Positions 12,101 to 29,662 of a stretch of DNA of 34,915 bases are shown piece by piece; within the stretch, counting starts at the first letter, position 1, and every line of letters starts with the position of its first letter. Source of the stretch: Rhodanobacteraceae bacterium (GTDB taxonomy: Bacteria > Pseudomonadota > Gammaproteobacteria > Xanthomonadales > Rhodanobacteraceae); NCBI GenBank assembly GCA_021325475.1, contig JAJPHA010000126.1, positions 1 through 34,915 on the forward strand, read 5' to 3'. The notes beneath the pieces were generated by a model, which made no database searches, was not told where the DNA came from, and worked only from the letters and a program-made list of their open reading frames with translations. The position numbers and the translations under genes were made by a program.

Positions 12101-13189
12101 CACGGCAAACGCCGTCTTGAGCACACCCACGCTGGCCACGGCGGCGGACACCGACAGATTCGCGGTCGCCCACGCGGCAGAGGTGGCGCTGGCCGCTGCG
12201 ACAGCTGCCGCCCCGGCGGTCTGCCAAGCAGTGATCAGCGCCGGGATGAGGCGGTAGATCAACACCGCGAGCCCGACCTCGGCGATGCGCTTCAACCACT
12301 GCATCACCGTGTCGAGGTTCTGCGCCAGCCACGTCAGCGCTTCGGCCAGCTTCTTGGTGAAGCCGGTCGATTCGTCGAGCTTGTTGATCCATTGCCCGAA
12401 GGCGTTCTTCAGGCGCTCGAACGACTGGCTGACGGTCTGCGGCAGTTGGGCGTACTCGCTGGCCAGCTTGTCCTTCTGCGAGAGCAGCGCATTGACCACC
12501 ACGTCGGCGGTGAGCCGTCCTTCCTCGGCCAGCTTGCGCAGCCGCCCGATGGGCACGTTCAGGCCATCCGCCAGTGCCTGCGCCAAGCGGGGACTGTTCT
12601 CGACGACGGAGTTGAATTCCTCGCCGCGCAGCACGCCGGAAGCGAGCGCCTGCCCGAACTGGAGCAAGGCGGAACGCGATTCCTCGGCGGACGCTCCCGA
12701 CAGGCGCAGCGCCTGCGAGATGCTCTCAGTGATCGTGAGCGCGTCCTTTTGCTCGCCGCCGAGCATCCGCACCGCCTGCTGCAGCTTGCCGTACAGCGTG
12801 GCGGTCTCCTGGATCGGCACGCCGATACGCTGGGCGATGTCGAACAGTTCCTTCTGCGCGACCGCGTACTCGCGCTGGCCAGCGGTCGCCAGCTTCAGGC
12901 GCGCGGACATCATGTTCCAGGCGTCGGCGATCTGGACGATCTCCTGCACCTTGCCCGCCGCCCAGTTGATCGACAGGAAGGCCAGCAACTGCGTCTTGGC
13001 CGTCGCCACCTGATCGCCGAAGGCCGACATACCGGCCTTGACCTCGGCCATCCCGGCGGCCGCCTTCTCACCGGCGCTCTTGGCGGTGGCCGAGAGCTCG
13101 CCGAGGCTGCGCTCGGCGGACGTGATGGCGCGCTTGAGCCCCTCGTCGGCCCCTTCGAGTGCGACGAGGACGGAAATTCGGTTCGCCAT
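9137..13189 (-). CDS. Tape measure protein (1350 aa)
   Basis: This is the longest gene of the tail module and follows the tail chaperone and a minor tail gene, as tape measure genes do. The N-terminus (MANRISVLVALEGADEGLKRAI) is typical. Residues about 300-385 are hydrophobic and Ala/Gly/Val-rich (VGLAVLIYRLIPALI, VLGAFLVGWEIGTWL), the segment thought to enter or pore the inner membrane at DNA injection. Residues about 460-1020 are a long Glu/Lys/Ala/Gln coiled coil. The C-terminus holds two copies of a tape-measure motif: EAGAFVIRKAAVRKYG near 1066 and TPGEFVVNRNAVARYG near 1245. At roughly 0.15 nm per residue the length implies a tail of around 200 nm. Start ATG 13189 follows the previous stop by three bases. 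Confidence 0.93.
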   Translation of the reverse strand: MANRISVLVALEGADEGLKRAITSAERSLGELSATAKSAGEKAAAGMAEVKAGMSAFGDQVATAKTQLLAFLSINWAAGKVQEIVQIADAWNMMSARLKLATAGQREYAVAQKELFDIAQRIGVPIQETATLYGKLQQAVRMLGGEQKDALTITESISQALRLSGASAEESRSALLQFGQALASGVLRGEEFNSVVENSPRLAQALADGLNVPIGRLRKLAEEGRLTADVVVNALLSQKDKLASEYAQLPQTVSQSFERLKNAFGQWINKLDESTGFTKKLAEALTWLAQNLDTVMQWLKRIAEVGLAVLIYRLIPALITAWQTAGAAAVAAASATSAAWATANLSVSAAVASVGVLKTAFAVLGAFLVGWEIGTWLSEKFEIVRKAGIFMVEVLMKSIEQLRFHWEVFAAIFTSDTIAEAVKRRQARLAEMNRIFAEMYADASKGADAAKGAMNTAATAAEEIAKRLEAVRQGTQEAVGRGIEAVHAALEKLKSRLGEVEQAVGKANQTVNDATAKMAEAYKGLTSIVEANLQRQVEAVKARYEQEKSALELSKQSEAALITKSTQLLTDALTQQTTLRRQATTDALKLIDDESRAKIEAARRDGQTEAERAANVTRVENEILATKRQTMTQALAEYRQHIEALNAEANRHLAEIKRIEEEKRQLSMTTEERVRDIRRQGMTEFEATEDRKRQIAEYQEKAREALANGEFEQARQLAQKAMDLAAQVASSQTSEAKRGEDARKQSEQAVSQVTQLEAQSREAYRKQEYAQAEALMRQADQLRAELAQKAKDADAQIAQGKDGVNQAIQRIRESEEILNKTLDAEAKAHQTAAQSALSAREEISRTLAQTESQIDQITAKLKDGLKVTIDADTARFDKAIADLDKALAEKEVLLKIQADLQEAEKKLQQYEQLLKEGKTLPVDADVSKAKDALARLKTYADQNSQLELKVATEKAQAAITNVEGMIKALDRIQTESRHQVSTNADAARAEIMSLNGANTSSTHTIYVTKVETNATGGLVGGGASGGVRRFADGGAVAPAFPRMAGGTVPGSGHHDTVPRTLEAGAFVIRKAAVRKYGSGALARLANGVAHFAVGGRVASLGSTGSTGTDPNGKPSMPKRNREAVEALKMIDLGLQGMDEYTRWLEWNYGASVSLDMRWKTMESYGKQAQEDRRALEGFIDRKTLTGNERQNLERIKQTWRQAMAQPLLWGKDLERELIDYMEQNQGEFYRRGGLSKSDTVPAMLTPGEFVVNRNAVARYGAGFFEAINNLSAPAQALAGRALAGIQGFASGGLVQPAGSSLPRPSLSDSTPTRTVRVELSSGQQKVNATVDARDESRLLQLLDAARARTA

Positions 13190-21430: not shown

Positions 21431-23395
21431 TCAGCGAAGCCATCGGCTTCGGATGACGCGTCGGCGTGATGGGGTTGCAGAAACAGAGAGGCCACCGCGT
21501 TGGGTGGCCTCGTCTGGGTCAAATGTTTGAATCGGGGGCGGCTCATCCGGTGGCCGCTCCATCCCGAGTTGGCGCTCCAGTTCCCGCCAGTGCCGCTCCT
21601 CGAAGCGATCCAGGCCCGCGCTTGACGCGGCCGCGCGGGCGTACACGTAGCAGTCGAGCGCTTCATTGCGCTCTCGCATCTTTTGCCACTCGCGCACCGG
21701 GAAGCCGTTGCGGTCGCGGCGGGTGATCAGTTGCTCGGCGCAGAGCTGCTGGATGAACTCCGCATCGATTTTGGGCAGGTGGACGAAGCCGGTCGGATAG
21801 ACCGTGGTCACGCCGTCCTCGCTGACGTCCGCGCTCTTGCGCAGGTTGTTGTAGAACTCCAGCTTGGCGATGCCGACCGCCACCGTGAACACCTTGATGC
21901 CCCGGCGCAGCTTCTTGCCGCCCTGCGAGACATCGATGGCCGTCGGCGTGCCGATCAGGGCCGCGCCGCGCGGCACACCCTTGACCGCCATCACGCGCGA
22001 ATCGCGGCAGGCACGCACGAAGGCGTAGGCCTCCTGCGTCGCAAAGCCGGTGTCCAGCGCGAAGCGGGCCAGCGGCATCGCAGCGCCCGAGGCGTGCGTC
22101 CAGTTCTCCGCAATCAACTCGGCGAGGCGCTTCCACACCGCGTCGCGGGCGGTCTCGCCCATCAGCACGCGGTGCTCGACCAACCAGGACTCCTTGCCGC
22201 GCCCAAAGGCCCAGATCGACGCCTCGATGCGATCCTTCTGCACGTCGGCCGCGCCCACCAGGAGCAGTCCTCCCTGCGGCACGGTGCCGATGCGGTAGTC
22301 CTCGCGGCGCTCGACCAGCCGTTGCCAGTCGGGCGCTTCGCCTTCCTCGACCCACGTCTCGCCGAGCTCAGTGTTCTTGAAGGTCTTGATGGCCGCCGCC
22401 GATCCCGACTCCTTGTTGACGGCGCTCTCCCAAGCTGCCGCGATGTCGCGCCAACTGCGCCAGCCAACCGGGCTGTACAGCGACGACAGATGGAAGCCTG
22501 CCGTCTTGCCCGAGCCGTCACTGATCATCGCGCGCCATTCACCGTGCTCCAGCATCCAGGTCTTGTGATGCTCGGCAATCGGCTCGTCGCACGACTCGCA
22601 GACGTAGGCCGCCGTGTCCGGCAGTCCCTTCTCCCAGCGCAGTTGCTCGAAGCGCAGCCACTGGCGGTGGGAGCAATGCGGGCATGGCACGAAGTAGCGC
22701 CGCTGGTCGCTGGCGTCGTACTCGCGCTCGATGGCGCTCGCGCCCGAGATCGTCGGCGTCGACACGATGAAGATCTTGCGGCGCGCGAAGGTGCGGGTGC
22801 GCGCCTCGGCCAGCGAGATCGCATCGCCTTCGCCCTCGACGTCCAGCGGATAGCCATCCACCTCATCGAGGAACAGGTAGCGCACCGGCATCGAGCGCAG
22901 ACCCACGGCGCTGTTGGCTCCAGTCATCACGAGCACGCCGCCCCGGAACTCCTTGGCGAGGATCGTGTTGCCCGAGTCGCGCGAACGCGCCGGCGCGATC
23001 AGTTCCGCCAGCGCCGCCGACTCCTCGATCAGCGGGTCGATCCGCTGCTTGGAGTTGCGCTTGGCCATCTCCACCGTCGGCCAGACCGCCATCATCGGGC
23101 CCGGCGCGTGGTGGATTACGTAGCCGATCCAGTTCGATCCCATCTCGGTCGCGCCGAGCTGCGCAGCCTTCATGAACACCACGCGTTCGACCGGCGAGGT
23201 CGGCGACAGGCAGTCCATGATCGCCTTCAGGTACGGCGTGCGGCTGGTGCGCCAGCGTCCCGGCTCGGCGGACGCCTTGGAGGACAGCATCCGATGCCGA
23301 TCCGACCATTCGGACACCGTGAGCAGAGGATCGGGCGTCAGCCCTTCGCGCCACGCGCGCTCGATCTCGGCTGCGCCTTCATAGTCCATGTCCAT
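21431..23395 (-). CDS. Terminase large subunit, GpA family
   Basis: ATG 23395 (MDMDYEGAAEIERAW) is preferred to the TTG two codons upstream. The ATPase domain has the early-lysine Walker A variant KAAQLGATE (from Lys76, the same number as in lambda gpA) and Walker B LFLDE near 174-178. A four-cysteine zinc motif follows (CPHC at 238-241, CESC at 266-269). The nuclease domain carries the acidic residues in GAADVQKDRIEAS (Asp384), FALDTGF (Asp448) and ALDCYVYARAA (Asp581). It translocates and cuts phage DNA. GpA terminases usually make cohesive ends, so a cos site is expected but was not identified. Two perfect hairpins lie in its last 30 codons. Confidence 0.95.
   Translation of the reverse strand: MDMDYEGAAEIERAWREGLTPDPLLTVSEWSDRHRMLSSKASAEPGRWRTSRTPYLKAIMDCLSPTSPVERVVFMKAAQLGATEMGSNWIGYVIHHAPGPMMAVWPTVEMAKRNSKQRIDPLIEESAALAELIAPARSRDSGNTILAKEFRGGVLVMTGANSAVGLRSMPVRYLFLDEVDGYPLDVEGEGDAISLAEARTRTFARRKIFIVSTPTISGASAIEREYDASDQRRYFVPCPHCSHRQWLRFEQLRWEKGLPDTAAYVCESCDEPIAEHHKTWMLEHGEWRAMISDGSGKTAGFHLSSLYSPVGWRSWRDIAAAWESAVNKESGSAAAIKTFKNTELGETWVEEGEAPDWQRLVERREDYRIGTVPQGGLLLVGAADVQKDRIEASIWAFGRGKESWLVEHRVLMGETARDAVWKRLAELIAENWTHASGAAMPLARFALDTGFATQEAYAFVRACRDSRVMAVKGVPRGAALIGTPTAIDVSQGGKKLRRGIKVFTVAVGIAKLEFYNNLRKSADVSEDGVTTVYPTGFVHLPKIDAEFIQQLCAEQLITRRDRNGFPVREWQKMRERNEALDCYVYARAAASSAGLDRFEERHWRELERQLGMERPPDEPPPIQTFDPDEATQRGGLSVSATPSRRRVIRSRWLR
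21435..21511 (-). terminator. Two tandem hairpins in the 3' end of the terminase gene
   Basis: On the minus strand GAGGCCACC/GGTGGCCTC (positions 21511-21503 and 21496-21488) is a perfect 9-bp stem with loop CAACGC, followed by TCTGTTTCTG. It is followed by CGAAGCC/GGCTTCG (21451-21445 and 21441-21435), a perfect 7-bp stem with a 3-base loop, ending at the stop codon. Neither has a strong T run, so termination is partial at best. They may instead be RNA-processing or stability elements. Confidence 0.4.
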
Positions 23396-23397
23396 CG

Positions 23398-23943
23398 TCA
23401 ATCCACCCGGGGGCGCATCTCGCCCAGTTCCTGCAGGTGCTCACGCACCGCCGCCTCCAGGGCGATGTGCATCGTGTGCGGATCGACACCGAGCTTGGCC
23501 GCCATCTGCGCCGAGATGCGCGCGGGCCAGTTCAACCACGCATCGCGCTCGGCTCGCGCCAGCTTGAAGACGTGGGCGATGGCCTGGTTGCGGTCGACCA
23601 GCTCGCCCTTGAGGCGCGCCAGCCGCACCTTGTTCGTCTGCGCCTTGACCACCTCGTTGACAGTGCGCGCTTGCAGCAGCGACGCACCGCCGGTGGGCAA
23701 GGCGGCCTGACCGTCGCCCACAGGCGCGGCGGCGGCGGTTTCCGGCGGCACGGCGGCCTTGACGGCACGGGCGCGCGTGCCGGTGCGCGGCGCTTCGGTG
23801 TTGCGCGCCCACTCGGCGTCGGCGCGCTGCGGGTCAAGGGTTCCGTCCACCTCCGGCGTAATGCGCCCGGCGGCGATGGCCTTGCGCACTGCCGCGTCGG
23901 AAACGCCACGGTGACGCGCGTAGGCGCGAATCGAGATTCCCAT
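23398..23943 (-). CDS. Terminase small subunit (Nu1-like)
   Basis: ATG 23943 has AAGG upstream; a TTG four codons earlier is a weaker choice. The 181-residue protein opens with a winged-helix/HTH motif, IRAYARHRGVSDAAVRKAI, followed by AGRITPEVDGTLDPQRAD, the standard start of Nu1-type small terminases that bind cos/pac DNA. A Pro/Ala linker (about 55-90) leads to a helical oligomerisation region (TNKVRLARLKGELVDRNQAI) and a C-terminal part that should contact the large subunit. It directly precedes the large subunit gene. Its 5' end faces the plus-strand cassette. Confidence 0.88.
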   Translation of the reverse strand: MGISIRAYARHRGVSDAAVRKAIAAGRITPEVDGTLDPQRADAEWARNTEAPRTGTRARAVKAAVPPETAAAAPVGDGQAALPTGGASLLQARTVNEVVKAQTNKVRLARLKGELVDRNQAIAHVFKLARAERDAWLNWPARISAQMAAKLGVDPHTMHIALEAAVREHLQELGEMRPRVD

Positions 23944-23982
23944 CGGCACCTTCAATCATGTGTTCGTCCTTCGTCGAGAAAG

Positions 23983-24011
23983 AGCTTGGCTTCCATCGGG
24001 AACAGCGCGTT
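23983..24011 (+). repeat. 29-base gene-leader element, copy 1
   Basis: AGCTTGGCTTC, six bases (CATCGG), GAACAGCGCGTT. It ends 39 bases before the ATG of the first cassette gene. TTGGCT and GTTCAT (24009-24014) are 17 bases apart, matching sigma70 -35/-10 spacing. It lies in the divergent gap with the terminase genes. Confidence 0.8.
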
Positions 24012-24050
24012 CATCACGCCACGCCATCAACCACGTCGAAAGGACAAACG

Positions 24051-24317
24051 ATGAACAACCCAGCCCCCGACACCCTTGCAGTCAAGCTCGCCGAAGCCGC
24101 AATGGCGGTCTTGGTGCGCGCCTGCCGCGACGAGGTCGCCTCCGCCAGCAATACCGAACTCGAAGCTGCATGCGCTTCGATGCGCACACGAGCCAAGTTG
24201 GTCGTCAATCAACTGCTGGACGACGCTCGGGACGCACCCTGGATCGCGGAAACCGCGTTCCATGCCGCAGCCCTTGAACTGGCCGAAGCGGGCATCTCAT
24301 CGCTCCGCAGGCGTTGA
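24051..24317 (+). CDS. Cassette gene 1, unknown function (88 aa)
   Basis: ATG 24051 is preceded by AAAGGA; the longer in-frame reading from 23958 runs through the leader element and is not preferred. The 88 residues are mostly helical and Ala-rich (VKLAEAAMAVLVRACRDEVA, ELEAACASMRTRAKLVV) with no signal peptide or membrane segment. It is the first gene of the plus-strand cassette and carries the repeated leader element. No family is recognised. Base composition matches the surrounding phage. Confidence 0.65.
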   Translation: MNNPAPDTLAVKLAEAAMAVLVRACRDEVASASNTELEAACASMRTRAKLVVNQLLDDARDAPWIAETAFHAAALELAEAGISSLRRR

Positions 24318-24326
24318 AGCAGAAAG

Positions 24327-24355
24327 AGCTTGGCTTCACCGGCGAACAGCGCGTT
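24327..24355 (+). repeat. 29-base gene-leader element, copy 2
   Basis: AGCTTGGCTTC, six bases (ACCGGC), GAACAGCGCGTT. It begins ten bases after the stop of cassette gene 1 and ends 38 bases before the ATG of the DUF3489 gene. TTGGCT and GTTCAT are again 17 bases apart. A shared downstream stretch (ATCAACCAC then AAAGGA) also matches copy 1. Confidence 0.8.
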
Positions 24356-24393
24356 CATCACGATCCCAATCAACCACTGCAAAGGAACTGACC

Positions 24394-24912
24394 ATGAGCA
24401 CCATCCAACTGACTCCGGCCCAGCACGCCATCCTCGCCAAGGCCATCCACTCCAGCGACGGCAAGATCGATTGGTTCCCCGACAACGTCAAAGGCGGCGC
24501 GCGCAAGAAAGTGCTGGAGAGCATGTTCAACCGCGCCCTCATCACGCCCGACGGCGAGGGCTGGCGCATTGCCGCCGAGGGTTACGACGCGCTGGGCATG
24601 CCGCGCCCCGGCGTCCAGCAGCCGACGCCCGAGTTCGATGCCGAACTGGAGCAGGACGTCGCTGCCGCCGAAGCCACGTGGAAGCAGGAGGCCAAGACCA
24701 CGCCGCGCACCCGCGAGAACAGCAAGCAGGCCGAGGTCATCCGGATGCTCAAGCGCCCCGAGGGCGCGACCATCGGCCAGATCTGCGATACCACCGGCTG
24801 GCAGGCGCACACGGTGCGCGGCACCTTCGCCGGGGCCTTCAAGAAAAAACTCGGACTCGCCATCGTCTCGGACAAAGCCGAGGGCGGCGAGCGCGTGTAT
24901 CGGATTGCGTGA
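24394..24912 (+). CDS. DUF3489 domain protein
   Basis: ATG 24394 follows AAAGGA by several bases. The 172-residue protein ends in a DUF3489 domain (about residues 105-172): NSKQAEVIRMLKRPEGATIG, ICDTTGWQAHTVRG, FKKKLGL and a final RVYRIA. This reads as a winged-helix fold; family members occur on phages and genomic islands with no proven function. The N-terminal half (LTPAQHAILAKAIHSSDGKI) is a second helical domain that also looks like a winged helix (LITPDGEGWRIAAEGYDAL). DNA binding is plausible. If so, it could act on the repeated leader elements, which is a guess. Confidence 0.82.
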   Translation: MSTIQLTPAQHAILAKAIHSSDGKIDWFPDNVKGGARKKVLESMFNRALITPDGEGWRIAAEGYDALGMPRPGVQQPTPEFDAELEQDVAAAEATWKQEAKTTPRTRENSKQAEVIRMLKRPEGATIGQICDTTGWQAHTVRGTFAGAFKKKLGLAIVSDKAEGGERVYRIA

Positions 24913-24920
24913 TCAGCGCT

Positions 24921-24945
24921 GGGGTGCAGGCCCTGCCTGCCCCCC
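24921..24945 (+). other. Strong hairpin after the DUF3489 gene
   Basis: GGGGTGCAGG and CCTGCCCCCC pair at nine of ten positions around the loop CCCTG, nine bases after the stop codon. It is followed by ACGAAAAATCC, with no T run, so it is not a standard intrinsic terminator in either direction. It may slow polymerase or protect the 3' end. Confidence 0.4.
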
Positions 24946-24976
24946 ACGAAAAATCCATCGCCACCACCCTTGAAAA

Positions 24977-25005
24977 CGCTTGGCTTCCGAGGCGAACAGC
25001 GCGTT
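24977..25005 (+). repeat. 29-base gene-leader element, copy 3
   Basis: CGCTTGGCTTC (first base differs from the other copies), six bases (CGAGGC), GAACAGCGCGTT. It ends 47 bases before the ATG of cassette gene 3. TTGGCT and GTTCAT keep the 17-base spacing. The downstream leader differs from the other copies apart from AAGGAG. Confidence 0.8.
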
Positions 25006-25052
25006 CATGCTGGTGTCGTGATTGACGACGCATCCCAAGGAGAAACAGCCCC

Positions 25053-25412
25053 ATGAGCACCATGACCATCACCCTCGAACGCACCCCTCGCACTCTCCAA
25101 ATCGGCGACAACGCCATCGAGGTCGAGGAGTTGAGCATCCGCCTGCCGTTCGCGCGCAAGCCTGCCGATCTTGGCGAAGTCGGCGGTCAGGGGCAGACCA
25201 AGATCTACATCACCGAGACCAAGGAACTGAGCCCGGCCGAGTTCGACGGCTTTGCCAGCAGCCTGTTGGTATCGCGCGATTGGCTACGCGGCAAAGGCGG
25301 CGGTGCGGGCGACGGCTATCTCTGCGTGGAGGTCAAGGCGCCGGGTCGCCCCTATCTGTACGTCGACCCGGAGGGCGGCGATTACGCCCGCTACGTGGCC
25401 CGCCTCGGGTAA
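25053..25412 (+). CDS. Cassette gene 3, unknown function (119 aa)
   Basis: ATG 25053 has AAGGAG upstream. The 119-residue protein is mixed alpha/beta (MTITLERTPRTLQIGDNAIE, KIYITETKELSPAEFDGFAS) and ends GYLCVEVKAPGRPYLYVDPE before an acidic/aromatic tail. It has no signal peptide, membrane segment or metal motif. No family is recognised. It has its own copy of the leader element upstream and is followed by another. Confidence 0.7.
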   Translation: MSTMTITLERTPRTLQIGDNAIEVEELSIRLPFARKPADLGEVGGQGQTKIYITETKELSPAEFDGFASSLLVSRDWLRGKGGGAGDGYLCVEVKAPGRPYLYVDPEGGDYARYVARLG

Positions 25413-25441
25413 TCGAAAAGATCGAGAAAGAAGCCGGGAAC

Positions 25442-25470
25442 AGCTTGGCTTCTCAATCGAACAGCGCGTT
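25442..25470 (+). repeat. 29-base gene-leader element, copy 4
   Basis: AGCTTGGCTTC, six bases (TCAATC), GAACAGCGCGTT. It ends 39 bases before the ATG of cassette gene 4. The hexamer after the 17-base spacer is GTTACT here instead of GTTCAT. Just upstream, GAAGCC can pair with GGCTTC of the element, a hairpin not conserved in the other copies. Confidence 0.8.
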
Positions 25471-25509
25471 ACTACGGGTGTCGCAACGATCAACCGCAAG
25501 GAGCCCACG

Positions 25510-25878
25510 ATGAACAACACCAACCAGATCCCCGCCACCCGAAACGACGCCTGGGGCTTTTGGGGCACGATGAACGAGAACGCCACAGCAGCCTGGCCGA
25601 CGGCGATGACCGCGATCTCGGATGCCACGCACCAGCCCCTCGACTCAGTCAGGGCCTTCCTCGACAGCCGGCACGGACGTCACTTCGCGGACGATGTCCT
25701 GAACCAGATGCACGCCGGTTGCGCCCTGACGGACGCGATCCACGCCGCCACCGAGCAGTGGATGGGCTGGAAGATCGGACGCCAGACCAGCAAAGACTAC
25801 GGCATCCCGCGCGGCCTGCCTTACCTGACTGGCTTCGTGATTCACTGCGAGATCGTCGAAGAAGAACTCGCCGCCTGA
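25510..25878 (+). CDS. Cassette gene 4, unknown function (122 aa)
   Basis: ATG 25510 follows AAGGAG; the longer in-frame reading passes through the leader element. The protein has a Trp-rich N-terminal part (DAWGFWGTMNENATAAWPTA) followed by helices (LDSVRAFLDSRHGRHFADDV, CALTDAIHAATEQWMGWKIG). It ends GLPYLTGFVIHCEIVEEELA. I believe similar proteins occur on proteobacterial mobile elements, but I know of no function. It is soluble by appearance. It is separated from cassette gene 5 by ten bases, so these two are co-transcribed. Confidence 0.7.
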   Translation: MNNTNQIPATRNDAWGFWGTMNENATAAWPTAMTAISDATHQPLDSVRAFLDSRHGRHFADDVLNQMHAGCALTDAIHAATEQWMGWKIGRQTSKDYGIPRGLPYLTGFVIHCEIVEEELAA

Positions 25879-25888
25879 GGAGAGCGAC

Positions 25889-26095
25889 ATGGCCGCAGCC
25901 ACCACCAACCTGGCCATCGAAGCCAACTACGACGAGTTCGTCGCCGAATTGACCGCGCTCACCCGCAAGTACGGGGTGGCAATCCAGTCAGTCGGCGGCG
26001 TCATCCTTGCCGACCACGTCGACGAGTTCCGCAACGTCACTTACGTTGCCGATATCAGCAGCGGCGACCTCTACCCGAGTTTCCCCAAGTCCTGA
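25889..26095 (+). CDS. Cassette gene 5, unknown function (68 aa)
   Basis: ATG 25889 has GAGGAG upstream and lies ten bases after the preceding stop. The 68-residue protein (YDEFVAELTALTRKYGVAIQ, then VGGVILADHVDEFRNVTYVA) looks like a small alpha-beta domain. It is the only cassette gene without its own leader element. Its last 108 bases overlap the end of the minus-strand methyltransferase gene, so the two are convergent and antisense. No family is recognised. Confidence 0.6.
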   Translation: MAAATTNLAIEANYDEFVAELTALTRKYGVAIQSVGGVILADHVDEFRNVTYVADISSGDLYPSFPKS

Positions 26096-27334
26096 CAGAT
26101 CGTCGAACGCCACCCCATCGGATTTGCGGGTGGCTTGTTGTCCGGTCCAGTCCTGCCAGCGGCGCACGATCACATCGACGTACTTCGGGTCGAGCTCGAT
26201 CAGCCGCGCCAGCCGTCCCGATTTCTCGGCGGCGATCAGCGTCGTGCCGGAGCCGCCGAAGGGATCGAGCACCATGTTGCCGGGGCGGCTCGAATTTCGG
26301 ATCGCGCGCTCGACCAACTCCACCGGTTTCATCGTCGGGTGCAGGTCGTTCTTCTGTGGCTTCTTGATGCTCCACACGTCGCCCTGATCGCGGTCGCCGC
26401 ACCAGTGGCGTTGTGCGCCCTCCGGCCACCCATACAAAATCGGCTCGTACTGCCGCTGGTAGTCGGCGCGGCCCAGAGTGAAGGTGTTCTTGGCCCAGAT
26501 GATGAACGTCGACCACTTGCCACCGGCAGCGCGAAAGGCGGCCTGCAACACATCCAGTTCGCTGGACGACATCGCCACGTAGATGCCACCCCGGCAATGC
26601 GCGATGGTCGGCGTCAGCGCCGCCAGCAGAAAGTCGTAGAAGCCATCGCCCAGGTTGTCGTTCAGGATCGCGCGATCCTTGCCGCGCATCTTGTCCTTCG
26701 CGCTGTTGGCGTAGTTCACGTTGTAGGGCGGATCGGTGAACACCATGTCCACCGGCTCGCCGTCGAGCAAGGTGCGATAGCTGGCGGCCACGGTGGCGTC
26801 GCCGCACAGCAGTCGATGACCGCCGAGTAGCCAGACGTCGCCCGGGCGCGAGACCGGCGTCTCAGAGACCTCGGGCACGGCATCGTCATCGGTTTCGCCT
26901 TCGCCATCCGGTTCATCGCCCGCCAGCAATTCGGCCAACGCATCGGCGTCGAAGCCGGTCAGATCGAGGTCGAAGCCTTCGTCCTGCAAGGCTTCCAGCT
27001 CGATGCGCAGCAGTTCGTCGTCCCACCCGGCGTTCTCGGCGATGCGGTTGTCCGCGATCACCAGCGCGCGGCGCTGCGTCGGCGTTAGATGGTCGAGCAC
27101 GACCACCGGCACCATCTCCAGGCCGAGTTTCCGAGCGGCGGCGAGCCGCCCATGACCGGCGACGATCACGCCGTCGCTGCCAGCGAGGATGGGGTTGGTG
27201 AAGCCGAACTCGGCGATGCTCGCGGCGATCTGCGCCACCTGCGCGTCGCTGTGTGTGCGCGCATTGCGTGCATAGGGCACGAGCTTGGCGGTCGGCCATC
27301 GTTCGATCTTGTCGGCGAGCCACGAGAGCGTCAT
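25988..27334 (-). CDS. ParB-domain DNA adenine methyltransferase fusion
   Basis: ATG 27334 overlaps the stop of the upstream paralogue (ATGA). The 448-residue protein has a ParB/Srx-type N-terminal domain (about 10-95) with KLVPYARNARTHSDAQ, GSDGVIVAGHGRLAAARKLG and ALVIADNRIAENAGW. The C-terminal half is a beta-class methyltransferase: TDPPYNVNY (DPPY at 201-204) precedes the AdoMet motif LDPFGGSGTT (356-365). DPPY with this order points to N6-adenine. There is no linked restriction gene, so it is an orphan, likely anti-restriction or regulatory. About 34 C-terminal residues are read antisense to cassette gene 5 and are probably not ancestral. Confidence 0.88.
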   Translation of the reverse strand: MTLSWLADKIERWPTAKLVPYARNARTHSDAQVAQIAASIAEFGFTNPILAGSDGVIVAGHGRLAAARKLGLEMVPVVVLDHLTPTQRRALVIADNRIAENAGWDDELLRIELEALQDEGFDLDLTGFDADALAELLAGDEPDGEGETDDDAVPEVSETPVSRPGDVWLLGGHRLLCGDATVAASYRTLLDGEPVDMVFTDPPYNVNYANSAKDKMRGKDRAILNDNLGDGFYDFLLAALTPTIAHCRGGIYVAMSSSELDVLQAAFRAAGGKWSTFIIWAKNTFTLGRADYQRQYEPILYGWPEGAQRHWCGDRDQGDVWSIKKPQKNDLHPTMKPVELVERAIRNSSRPGNMVLDPFGGSGTTLIAAEKSGRLARLIELDPKYVDVIVRRWQDWTGQQATRKSDGVAFDDLSGLGETRVEVAAADIGNVSDVAELVDVVGKDDAAD

Positions 27335-28728
27335 GCCACAACCTCCTCGGTACGCTCGCCCTCGACCTCGTCGAAGGTCTGACCCGTGGCCAGCAGCGTG
27401 ACCGCCACCGCCGGGTGGTTCTGCCGGAAGCGCCGGATGGCGACATCGACGTACTCCGGCGCGATCTCGACCGAGCGGCAGACGCGCCCGGTTCGCTGCG
27501 CGGCCAGCATCGTGCTGCCGCTGCCGCAGAACGGCTCGAACACTAGATCGCCCGTGGCGCTGAACGCCTCGATGATGAACTGCGGCAGTGCGACCGGGAA
27601 CACGGCGGGATGGTCGATGCCGTCGCCGATCTTGCCCTTGTGGCGCATCACGCGGATCACCGAATCGGGGATGCGCATGTCCTGCGTCGGCTGGCCCGAG
27701 TGCGTCCAGCCGTTGACCTCGCCGTCCTTGCCGCGCATCGCCGTGGACGAGCCATCGGCGCGCAGGTGCGTTTCCTGTCCGGCGAACTTGCACGGCACGA
27801 TCTTGTTGGGCTTGCGGCTGGCGCGGTTGAAATGGAACACGAACTCGAAGCTGGGCGCGAAGCGACCCTGCCAGTCGCCGGGCATCCCCGGCCCCTGATC
27901 CCAGACATACCAGCCGAAGCGCCGCCAGCCCTTCGTCCGCATCCAGCCGAGCCACGCCTCCCAATACGGGACGAACTCGTTGTCGCGGTGGATCAGGCCG
28001 AGGTTGATCAGCACCTGGCCGTCGCCCGCCATCGGCAACTGAGCGAACACGCCGCGCATCAGCGCGTCCCAATCGGCGATGCCGCCGGTGGTGTAGTCGC
28101 GCTGGTTGCCGTAGGGCGGCGAGGTGAAGCACAGCGCCGCTTGCTCGCCTGCCATCAGTGCGGCGACCACTTCGGCGTCGGCGGCGTCGCCACAGATCAG
28201 GCGATGCGCACCGATGGCCCAGACGTCGCCCGCGCGGGATACCGGCATAGCCGGAGTGTCGGGAACGTCGTCGGCGTCATCCGCCGCTTCGTCGTCCTGC
28301 GCGTCGCCGCCCGATTCCTCTGCGGCTGCTAGTAGATCTTGCAGCTCGGCGTCCTCGAAGCCGGTGAGCGCCAGCTCGTAACCGGCGTCGGACAGCTCGG
28401 CCAGCTCCAGCGCCAGCATTTCCTCGTCCCAGCCCGCGTCCAACGCCAGCCGGTTGTCGGCAATGACATAGGCGCGCTTCTGCGCCGCGCTCAGGTGTGC
28501 CAGTTCGATCACCGGCACTTCGGCCAAGCCGAGCTTGCGTGCGGCGGCCAGACGCCCGTGGCCCGCGATGATGCCGCTGCCGCCGTCGACCAGGATCGGG
28601 TTCGTCCAGCCGTACTCGACGATGCTGGCCGCGATCTTGGCGATCTGCGCCTCGGTGTGCGTGCGCGGGTTGCGGGCGTAGGGGATCAGCGTCTCGACCT
28701 TGCGGTACTCGACGTTCAAAAGATTCAA
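27331..28728 (-). CDS. ParB-domain DNA methyltransferase fusion, SPPY type
   Basis: The likely start is TTG 28728; no in-frame ATG or GTG lies nearby, and a second TTG is at 28719. The 465-residue protein has the same layout as the next gene: a ParB-like domain (TLIPYARNPRTHTEAQ, SGIIAGHGRLAAARKLGL, AYVIADNRLALDAGW), an acidic linker (about 135-160), then a beta-class methyltransferase with TSPPYGN (SPPY at 203-206) and FEPFCGSGS (397-405). SPPY is typical of N4-cytosine enzymes but not proof. Its role is probably protection or marking of phage DNA. A terminator hairpin ends only about 15 bases upstream of the start. Confidence 0.87.
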   Translation of the reverse strand: MNLLNVEYRKVETLIPYARNPRTHTEAQIAKIAASIVEYGWTNPILVDGGSGIIAGHGRLAAARKLGLAEVPVIELAHLSAAQKRAYVIADNRLALDAGWDEEMLALELAELSDAGYELALTGFEDAELQDLLAAAEESGGDAQDDEAADDADDVPDTPAMPVSRAGDVWAIGAHRLICGDAADAEVVAALMAGEQAALCFTSPPYGNQRDYTTGGIADWDALMRGVFAQLPMAGDGQVLINLGLIHRDNEFVPYWEAWLGWMRTKGWRRFGWYVWDQGPGMPGDWQGRFAPSFEFVFHFNRASRKPNKIVPCKFAGQETHLRADGSSTAMRGKDGEVNGWTHSGQPTQDMRIPDSVIRVMRHKGKIGDGIDHPAVFPVALPQFIIEAFSATGDLVFEPFCGSGSTMLAAQRTGRVCRSVEIAPEYVDVAIRRFRQNHPAVAVTLLATGQTFDEVEGERTEEVVA

Positions 28729-29064: not shown

Positions 29065-29460
29065 CTACGCAGTGACGACGCCATTGAGCTGGTCGGCGAC
29101 CGTCTGCAAGGCGCGCTGCCAGCGCCGCCAGGCCGTCGTGCGGTCGCAGGCGAAGCGGATGGTGATGTCGCGCCAGCCGTATCGCTTGGCGCGCATCCAC
29201 ACGAGGTGGCGCTGCTCGACCTCCAACCACTGCACCCACTTCATCGTCTCCAGCATCCGGTCGATGGCGTCCGGCGTCGGAGGGAACGGTCGGTACACGT
29301 GCTCGTCGGCGGCGAAGGCCTCCCACTCCTTGCGCACGATGATCGGCCAGGTGTTGAAGTAGCCCTGCACACGCACGGGAGGCAGGCGTCGTCCCGTGCT
29401 GGCCGCTTCCTCGAAGCGCGCGGCCACGTCGTCGATTGTCCAGTTGCGATGGTCAGCCAT
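29065..29460 (-). CDS. HTH protein (DUF6362-like)
   Basis: ATG 29460 (MADHRNWTIDDVAARFEEAA) overlaps the end of the upstream gene; a longer frame upstream is a Ser/Thr-rich shadow. The 131 residues contain RLPPVRVQGYFNTWPIIVR near 25-43, which I recognise from DUF6362-type phage proteins, and a C-terminal helix-turn-helix (about 94-120: RYGWRDITIRFACDRTTAWRR) like sigma region 4. As the last gene of the early operon, a role as transcription regulator for methyltransferase or late genes is plausible. The family name is a recollection. Confidence 0.7.
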   Translation of the reverse strand: MADHRNWTIDDVAARFEEAASTGRRLPPVRVQGYFNTWPIIVRKEWEAFAADEHVYRPFPPTPDAIDRMLETMKWVQWLEVEQRHLVWMRAKRYGWRDITIRFACDRTTAWRRWQRALQTVADQLNGVVTA

Positions 29461-29662
29461 GACGTGCGCCTCCTTGTCCGTAGAGACGTTCGCCGATGCG
29501 ACGGATGAACTCCCGCTCGATGAAGTCGAGGCGTTCGTCGGCGGCGTTGACGACGAGGATGTGCTGGTCGCGCCAGCCACGTTGCTTCATCGCCTCGAGG
29601 TCGGTGGAGTCGGGCTGGAGGCGGCCCAAGGGGCAGCGATAGGTGGGCGTCGGAGTCTTCAT
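29453..29662 (-). CDS. Small early protein, unknown function (69 aa)
   Basis: ATG 29662 lies at the stop of the RuvC-like gene, and GAGGCG upstream serves as ribosome site. The 69 residues have one cysteine (YRCPLGRLQP) and a helical centre (DLEAMKQRGWRDQHILVV, RLDFIEREFIRRIGERLYGQ). Overlap with the next start indicates coupled translation. It lies between the resolvase and the HTH gene. No function is known to me. Confidence 0.65.
   Translation of the reverse strand: MKTPTPTYRCPLGRLQPDSTDLEAMKQRGWRDQHILVVNAADERLDFIEREFIRRIGERLYGQGGARHG

Follow-up and report, generated by a model that had tools for sequence, protein, structure and literature searches.

In the cluster K mycobacteriophages, the SAS, a 13-base word, and the ESAS, imperfect 17-base inverted repeats with a variable spacer, both lie near start codons (PMC3203893, PMC12699233). 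The element described below shares with these repeats a position just upstream of many small phage genes, a single orientation with few exceptions, a proposed role in expression, and a consensus that shifts, in their case between subclusters; unlike them, it is one asymmetric unit of 31 bases with mostly fixed spacing, lying 25–44 bases from the start codon. The stoperators of L5-type cluster A phages have a 13-base consensus with 26 sites in the TipsytheTRex genome, silence transcription, and are recognised by a monomeric protein that has two DNA-binding domains (PMC9283540). In both cases the site is dispersed and asymmetric, with one orientation to transcription and its most variable bases mid-site, whereas the present element occurs in 1–9 copies per contig, has a promoter-like geometry, and has a reader, DUF3489, that is only a candidate. 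A third comparison is provided by activator-dependent phage promoters of the lambda CII type, where CII reads TTGC-N6-TTGC around the -35 box; as there, integration and accessory genes could be activated together by a single phage protein acting on poor -10 and -35 boxes, although the aligned element shows no TTGC-N6-TTGC. The element is similar in kind to SAS/ESAS and L5-type stoperators, and different in sequence and geometry. No description of it came up in the literature collection searched, and the listed papers containing the 10-mer all looked unrelated by title and start of abstract.

The window, the whole stretch of 34,915 nucleotides of a Rhodanobacteraceae bacterium that was analysed, had been described in an earlier note as carrying four copies of a 29-base element ahead of four unrelated small genes. 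Scanning with AGCTTGGCTTC-N6-GAACAGCGCGTT at up to three mismatches returned exactly four copies, all on the + strand (Table 1), three without mismatch and copy 3 with one, at its first base; the same pattern had 0 matches across 100 dinucleotide-preserving shuffles of the window, confirming that the copies are real and not chance. The downstream genes are indeed unrelated, their four proteins matching different families or none, and the pattern ends 39, 38, 47 and 39 bases before the respective ATG, within the 38–47 bases given earlier. At up to two mismatches, the SAS word GGGATAGGAGCCC was found 0 times in the window, and no ESAS-type 17-base inverted repeats were seen by eye in the aligned element.

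The element genes sit together as a run of small + strand genes, flanked on one side by the terminase genes and on the other by a gene for a ParB-like DNA methyltransferase, these neighbours being on the - strand; P0005 is probably co-transcribed with P0004. An alternative earlier start of P0001, an in-frame ATG, gives a 119-aa frame (23958–24317) running through element copy 1. A DUF6362 protein (29065–29580, - strand) has a weak regulator match and is present in the other prophages compared, with none found within the 24-kb stretch of phage AcaML1; it is possibly a late-gene regulator. A phage sigma factor was considered as reader of the element and discarded, with none found when 19 proteins of the window were scanned against Pfam and PHROGs.

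Table 1. Element copies and neighbouring genes in the window.
Feature	Position	Strand	Basis
Element copy 1 (29-mer + CAT), before P0001	23983..24014	+	pattern scan; two-block form 23984–24014
Element copy 2, before the DUF3489 gene (P0002)	24327..24358	+	pattern scan
Element copy 3 (deviating first base), before P0003	24977..25008	+	pattern scan
Element copy 4 (ends GTTACT), before P0004	25442..25473	+	pattern scan
P0001, 88 aa, phrog_36268	24051..24317	+	PHROGs match
P0002, 172 aa, DUF3489 protein, candidate regulator	24394..24912	+	Pfam; two winged-helix-like domains in model
P0003, 119 aa, weak phrog_21303 match	25053..25412	+	PHROGs
P0004, 122 aa, phrog_8020	25510..25878	+	PHROGs
P0005, 68 aa, without own element	25889..26095	+	reading frame
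Terminase small subunit, divergent neighbour	23398..23955	-	phrog_57
Terminase large subunit gpA	21431..23401	-	PF05876, PF20454
ParB-like/N6_N4 DNA methyltransferase frame, convergent neighbour	25988..28132	-	Pfam (frame from 26055), PHROGs

Alignment of 772 distinct instances (at most 5 mismatches, identical flanks removed, start codons predicted by script) resolves the core into two blocks, CTTGGCTT and CAGCGCGT(T)MMT, flanking ten looser bases, a conservation that is partly built in because instances were selected by the mismatch limit. Rather than 29 bases, the conserved unit has 31, its final T (GTTCAT or GTTACT) occurring in 768/772; 729 of the 772 instances end 25–44 bases upstream of the predicted start codon, and the leader is T-poor, becoming A/G-rich ahead of that codon. 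Among 209 distinct gene-anchored instances, bases 2–9 (CTTGGCTT) are 98.6–100% fixed and bases 20–27 (CAGCGCGT) 96.7–100%, with base 28 at 87.6%, T31 at 99.5%, and bases 29–30 mainly CA or AC. Bases 11–16 are free, as the earlier note had it, although the bases bordering them are looser than supposed: C10 and GAA17-19 are conserved at about 80–93% in the gene-anchored instances and 71–81% after cluster weighting, and, since this conservation is incomplete, the pattern is better described as two blocks about ten bases apart. With 22 downstream gene clusters weighted equally (those with at least two members among the 33 given by looser clustering), bases 2–9 remain at ≥98%, bases 20–27 at ≥96% and T28 at 91%; stricter clustering gives 38 clusters, including fragments of larger families, and both weightings use only instances with a start codon 22–48 bases away.

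Loci picked by their P0004 or P0002 proteins rather than by the element held 304, 79, 43, 17, 7 and 7 places with 0, 1, 2, 3, 4 and 5 mismatches (overlapping loci of one contig being counted twice); every place with 0–6 mismatches lay on the strand of the gene, and the reversed control gave no match in these loci up to 5 mismatches. A diverged element near GCTTGCTATTC-N6-GGTAGAGCGTTCAT was observed in the same place upstream of P0004 relatives in four loci (L293, L304, L315, L319), where the remaining copies have AGAGCG in common instead of AGCGCG. A near-match, CCTTGGCTTTGTTCGCGAACAGCGCCTTCAT, recurs in L539, L546, L555–L557 and L566 (one base off in L555) and in 5/6 cases precedes a 301–305-aa frame (MAPRLLTSPQAAERLG), apparently an unrelated context.

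The four copies of the window are a small part of the occurrence of the element. Nine places with at most three mismatches are found in the source genome, the four of the window, four on contig C37 and one on C32. The C37 matches (L440–L443; elements at 12113, 12474, 35150 and 50455) lie in another prophage region that belongs to the same family, with its own DUF3489 and core phage genes as in the window. Exact scans returned at least 120 stretches of viral contigs and at least 114 stretches of species genomes; among the matches listed, most titles were beta- and gammaproteobacterial, with Nitrospira, Geobacter and a few other bins also present; the species genomes listed include Stenotrophomonas acidaminiphila JCM 13310 and Comamonas granuli NBRC 101663. 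Hundreds of copies occur in prophage-like contigs. The two-block pattern with at most one mismatch was found in 17/369 genomes of the class of the window, against one match of the reversed control (in G358); eight of the 17 have three or more copies, the other nine a single match. Two single matches precede DUF2924 (G136, G200), one lies beside terminase remnants (G262), one has no recognisable neighbours in 40 kb (G007), and those in G036, G123 and G145 may be chance. The matches of G279 and G292 lie within the same coding frame, which we take to be ClpX-like. Random occurrence inside coding regions of other genomes, which the earlier note named as a refutation, is argued against by the many prophage occurrences at a fixed start-codon offset and on the strand of the gene, although a few class-wide matches do fall within coding frames.

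The geometry of the element is promoter-like. TTGGCT and GTTMMT lie 17 bases apart in the aligned instances, as claimed for the window copies and within the 16–18 spacing of sigma70-type promoters, and the claim of extra conserved bases inside the spacer was borne out across the instances. Beyond the element, at bases that played no part in selecting instances, positions +6 to +9 after the last T read Y 100%, R 80%, Y 93% and C 80% across the 22 equally weighted clusters, and Y 98, R 83, Y 96 and C 80% across the 38 stricter ones; the R of this Y-R-Y-C signature stands seven bases after the last T, in the register of a sigma70-type promoter. A purine occupies the predicted start in 3/4 window copies (copy 2 has C), and some DUF2924 copies are likewise without one. 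The -10 box itself is poor: an A is expected at -11 in the sigma70 -10 box, whereas the second -10 position of the element (T27) is T in 768/772 instances, and, owing to this box, a sigma70 consensus scan of window positions 23800–26200 found 0 promoters. From the poor -10 box we infer dependence on an activator, and the element is read, with a probability of roughly 0.56, as a shared, activator-dependent promoter of a temperate-phage family, a promoter-like switch that would turn the genes of a prophage regulon on together.

According to this promoter reading, host RNA polymerase with a sigma70-type factor would engage TTGGCT as the -35 and GTTMMT as the -10 box and would start transcription at the purine seven bases past the last T, leaving a 5' leader of about 19–38 bases that includes a ribosome-binding site. 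A phage protein switching all copies together, presumably by activation, would have its footprint in the poor -10 box and in the additional conserved bases (a C before the -35, CAGCGC before the -10), and would control both the terminase-side small genes and the DUF2924-recombinase operon, which run counter to the late and replication genes. DUF3489 is the best candidate for this protein, its two winged-helix-like domains being potentially able to bind and read the two blocks.

The extent of the putative regulon was examined in 31 distinct contigs of at least 35 kb, all such contigs among the 120 viral stretches listed, each contig carrying 1–9 elements with at most two mismatches; the reversed control gave a single match in each of G379, G381 and G395. 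Of the 31 contigs, 22 contain DUF2924, and in 20 of these 22 an element precedes it, on the same strand and 57–81 bases before the profile match (distances read off tables); in the remaining two (G379, G381) the gene sits at the contig end. The order in the G358 prophage is late genes and terminase (-), three element genes (+), methyltransferase to primase (-), XRE/ImmA-type genes (+), and then element, DUF2924 and recombinase (+), where the XRE, ImmA and serine recombinase genes are presumed from their sequence. There as in the window, the element genes are oriented opposite to the lytic genes. The shared regulon proposed by the earlier note appears to hold in that one element precedes unrelated small genes, and would be wider than proposed, the element also preceding DUF2924 at the other end of the prophage.

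Outside the class and within the same phylum, a counterpart, CTGGATAA-N10-CAATGNCCTNAT, was found with at most two mismatches at 29 places in 10/12 genomes, presumably alphaproteobacteria, 28 of them adjoining DUF2924. Many DUF2924 genes outside the class have an upstream frame, the tail of which holds counterparts (CTGGATAA..CAATGCCCTTAT, CTACACAA..CAGAGCG; L466–L495). These lineage-specific counterparts suggest that the element may originally have served as leader of the DUF2924 operon before spreading to other phage genes.

P0002 matches the DUF3489 profile (PF11994) at 109.6 bits, against a curated cut-off of 29.5, and a fold assignment is mentioned for this family in PMC4520260. DUF3489 is present in 31/31 of the long element-bearing viral contigs versus 0/14 control genomes, and exceeds the cut-off in 9/369 class genomes, including all eight with three or more elements. 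One genome (G050) has DUF3489 and lacks the element; four (G200, G136, G262, G007) have the element and lack DUF3489, their fetched regions looking like remnants or a short contig. An element with at most three mismatches lies within 110 bases upstream of 80/80 kept DUF3489 loci, and one with at most four mismatches in 69/77 uncut P0004 loci, the other eight having only a diverged form in the same place, with a longer spacer in L311. Among isolated phages, AcaML1 alone gave a strong match to P0004, and the 24-kb stretch of it that was analysed contains three elements together with a DUF3489 relative. The AlphaFold model of DUF3489 (mean pLDDT 78.3, pTM 0.41, 36 sequences) suggests, as judged from the helices and strands, two winged-helix-like domains, and does not fix how they are placed relative to each other; the best Foldseek matches are mostly ArsR- and MarR-type regulators, none reaching an E value of 0.001.

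Variation in the element has also been compared with variation in DUF3489. Across the 94 loci that, once repeats had been merged, retained at least two elements, copies within one phage have 22 non-consensus bases in common, versus a mean of 2.7 and a maximum of 11 in 2000 shuffles. The helix and box table covers 139 of the 285 loci scanned, restricted to loci in which the helix was readable and two or more copies were present, with duplicates removed: seven loci have mostly variant -10 boxes and 7/7 of these have an altered DUF3489 helix, versus 0/113 among canonical-helix loci; 19 altered-helix loci, including the strongly altered L101, retain canonical boxes, and L541 has a mixture of element variants. 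This suggests a link between helix and element, a lead that rests on about two lineages. Co-evolution through G26C was set aside, being suggestive in G125 and not clean in L541, with several scan matches in another gene context. DUF3489, itself within the predicted regulon, is tentatively put forward, at somewhat less than even odds, as the best candidate reader of the element; it may also be nothing more than one of the core genes of these phages. More doubtful is the fuller proposal that DUF3489 represents a novel type of phage transcription activator: acting as a monomer, it would use its two winged-helix domains to read both blocks of a long, asymmetric promoter that lacks a usable -10 box, and would recruit host RNA polymerase to all copies at once.

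Among the alternatives, the one that fares best, although it is unlikely, is a stoperator-like silencer, in which the element would be a dispersed operator, and a phage repressor bound there (DUF3489, perhaps, or the repressor of lysogeny) would prevent transcription from starting or from extending into each gene. The asymmetry of the element, its one orientation to the gene, the short gaps before genes and the genome-wide repeats recall the L5-type operators of a two-domain monomer, and DUF3489 has two predicted winged-helix-like domains; however, the fixed start-codon offset and initiator signature suit a promoter, and the G358 copies precede genes that run against the lytic operons. For the XRE-type gene of G358, one other prophage alone gave a match in the comparison made, while the element is almost invariant (neither the window nor the AcaML1 stretch extends to this region).

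A little less probable again is a constitutive or host-regulated promoter, read by a host sigma or transcription factor and requiring no phage regulator. The sigma70 register and the lone DUF2924 elements in genomes without DUF3489 are consistent with this, whereas the near-invariance of the element in unlike hosts, the variants common to the copies of one phage and the lack of a sigma70 consensus match argue against it.

An improbable third alternative is an RNA-level leader, with the element acting in the mRNA as a translation operator or attenuator, as could be expected from the fixed distance to the start codon and from the element of the G358 DUF2924 operon, which lies inside the end of the upstream reading frame. 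In 1007/1029 cells a three-pair stem (6-23, 7-22, 8-21) could form, a count that is uninformative because the stem hardly varies. The four leaders as a set fold no better than shuffles (z 0.02, 0.41, -1.25, 1.34), and hairpin pairs change one-sidedly: A18/A19 are changed in 103 distinct 31-mers, in 100 of which T8/T9 remain T, and C29 changes to A in 67 distinct 31-mers, G17 to T in 0. The Rfam search of the window gave no match, and a structured RNA was rejected on these grounds, with no compensatory changes in the two hairpins considered; the GAAC/GTTC hairpin raised earlier is accordingly not supported.

Less probable than an RNA leader is a coding function, in which the element would encode LGFxxEQRV(H/T), with two free codons, as a leader peptide or protein tail. 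The frame fits the six variable bases, stops around the free bases occurring in 11/750 instances versus 65 and 33 in the other two + frames; it is open upstream for a median of 47 codons versus 21 and 19, contains a start in 65% versus 45% and 40%, and its stop overlaps the start codon as ATGA in 216/750. In G358 the 72-aa gene before DUF2924 also runs through the element in this frame, and at that place genomes outside the class carry a counterpart specific to their lineage. Against this, in 155/761 instances a stop interrupts the frame within the 10 codons upstream and is not followed by a start codon, and, with many copies lacking any start, a translated leader cannot be general; in addition, the third positions of CTT, GGC and CAG are nearly fixed (771, 770 and 767 of 772), and downstream starts are about equally spread over the three frames (279/226/245). 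A minus-strand reading, MNALFxxEAK, was discarded, with stops around the free bases in 136, 17 and 229 of 750 in the three minus frames, and with the CA/AC swap removing its ATG.

A recombination site, with genes moving as cassettes, has next to no probability: the 11 + 6 + 11 arrangement resembles Xer dif sites, two arms flanking six free bases with one site per gene in the array, but the window lacks a site after the last gene, neither the fixed start-codon offset nor the lone DUF2924 copies need one, the looser GAA beside the spacer is unlike paired arms, and A18/A19 vary where T8/T9 do not. Xer dif/pdif sites have paired arms with an inner palindrome around a 6-base spacer and flank each module, an architecture to which the element does not conform.

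The activator-dependent promoter, if correctly read, offers one searchable DNA signature for a common, little-described prophage family, of a kind easily missed because each phage holds few copies. Co-expression seems likely for some twenty or more families of small proteins, mostly without an assigned function, a concrete candidate regulator is offered, and the accessory genes are linked with the integration module. Were the fuller proposal for DUF3489 true, this protein would run a phage-wide programme, comprising the accessory genes and the DUF2924-recombinase integration operon, across many bacterial families.
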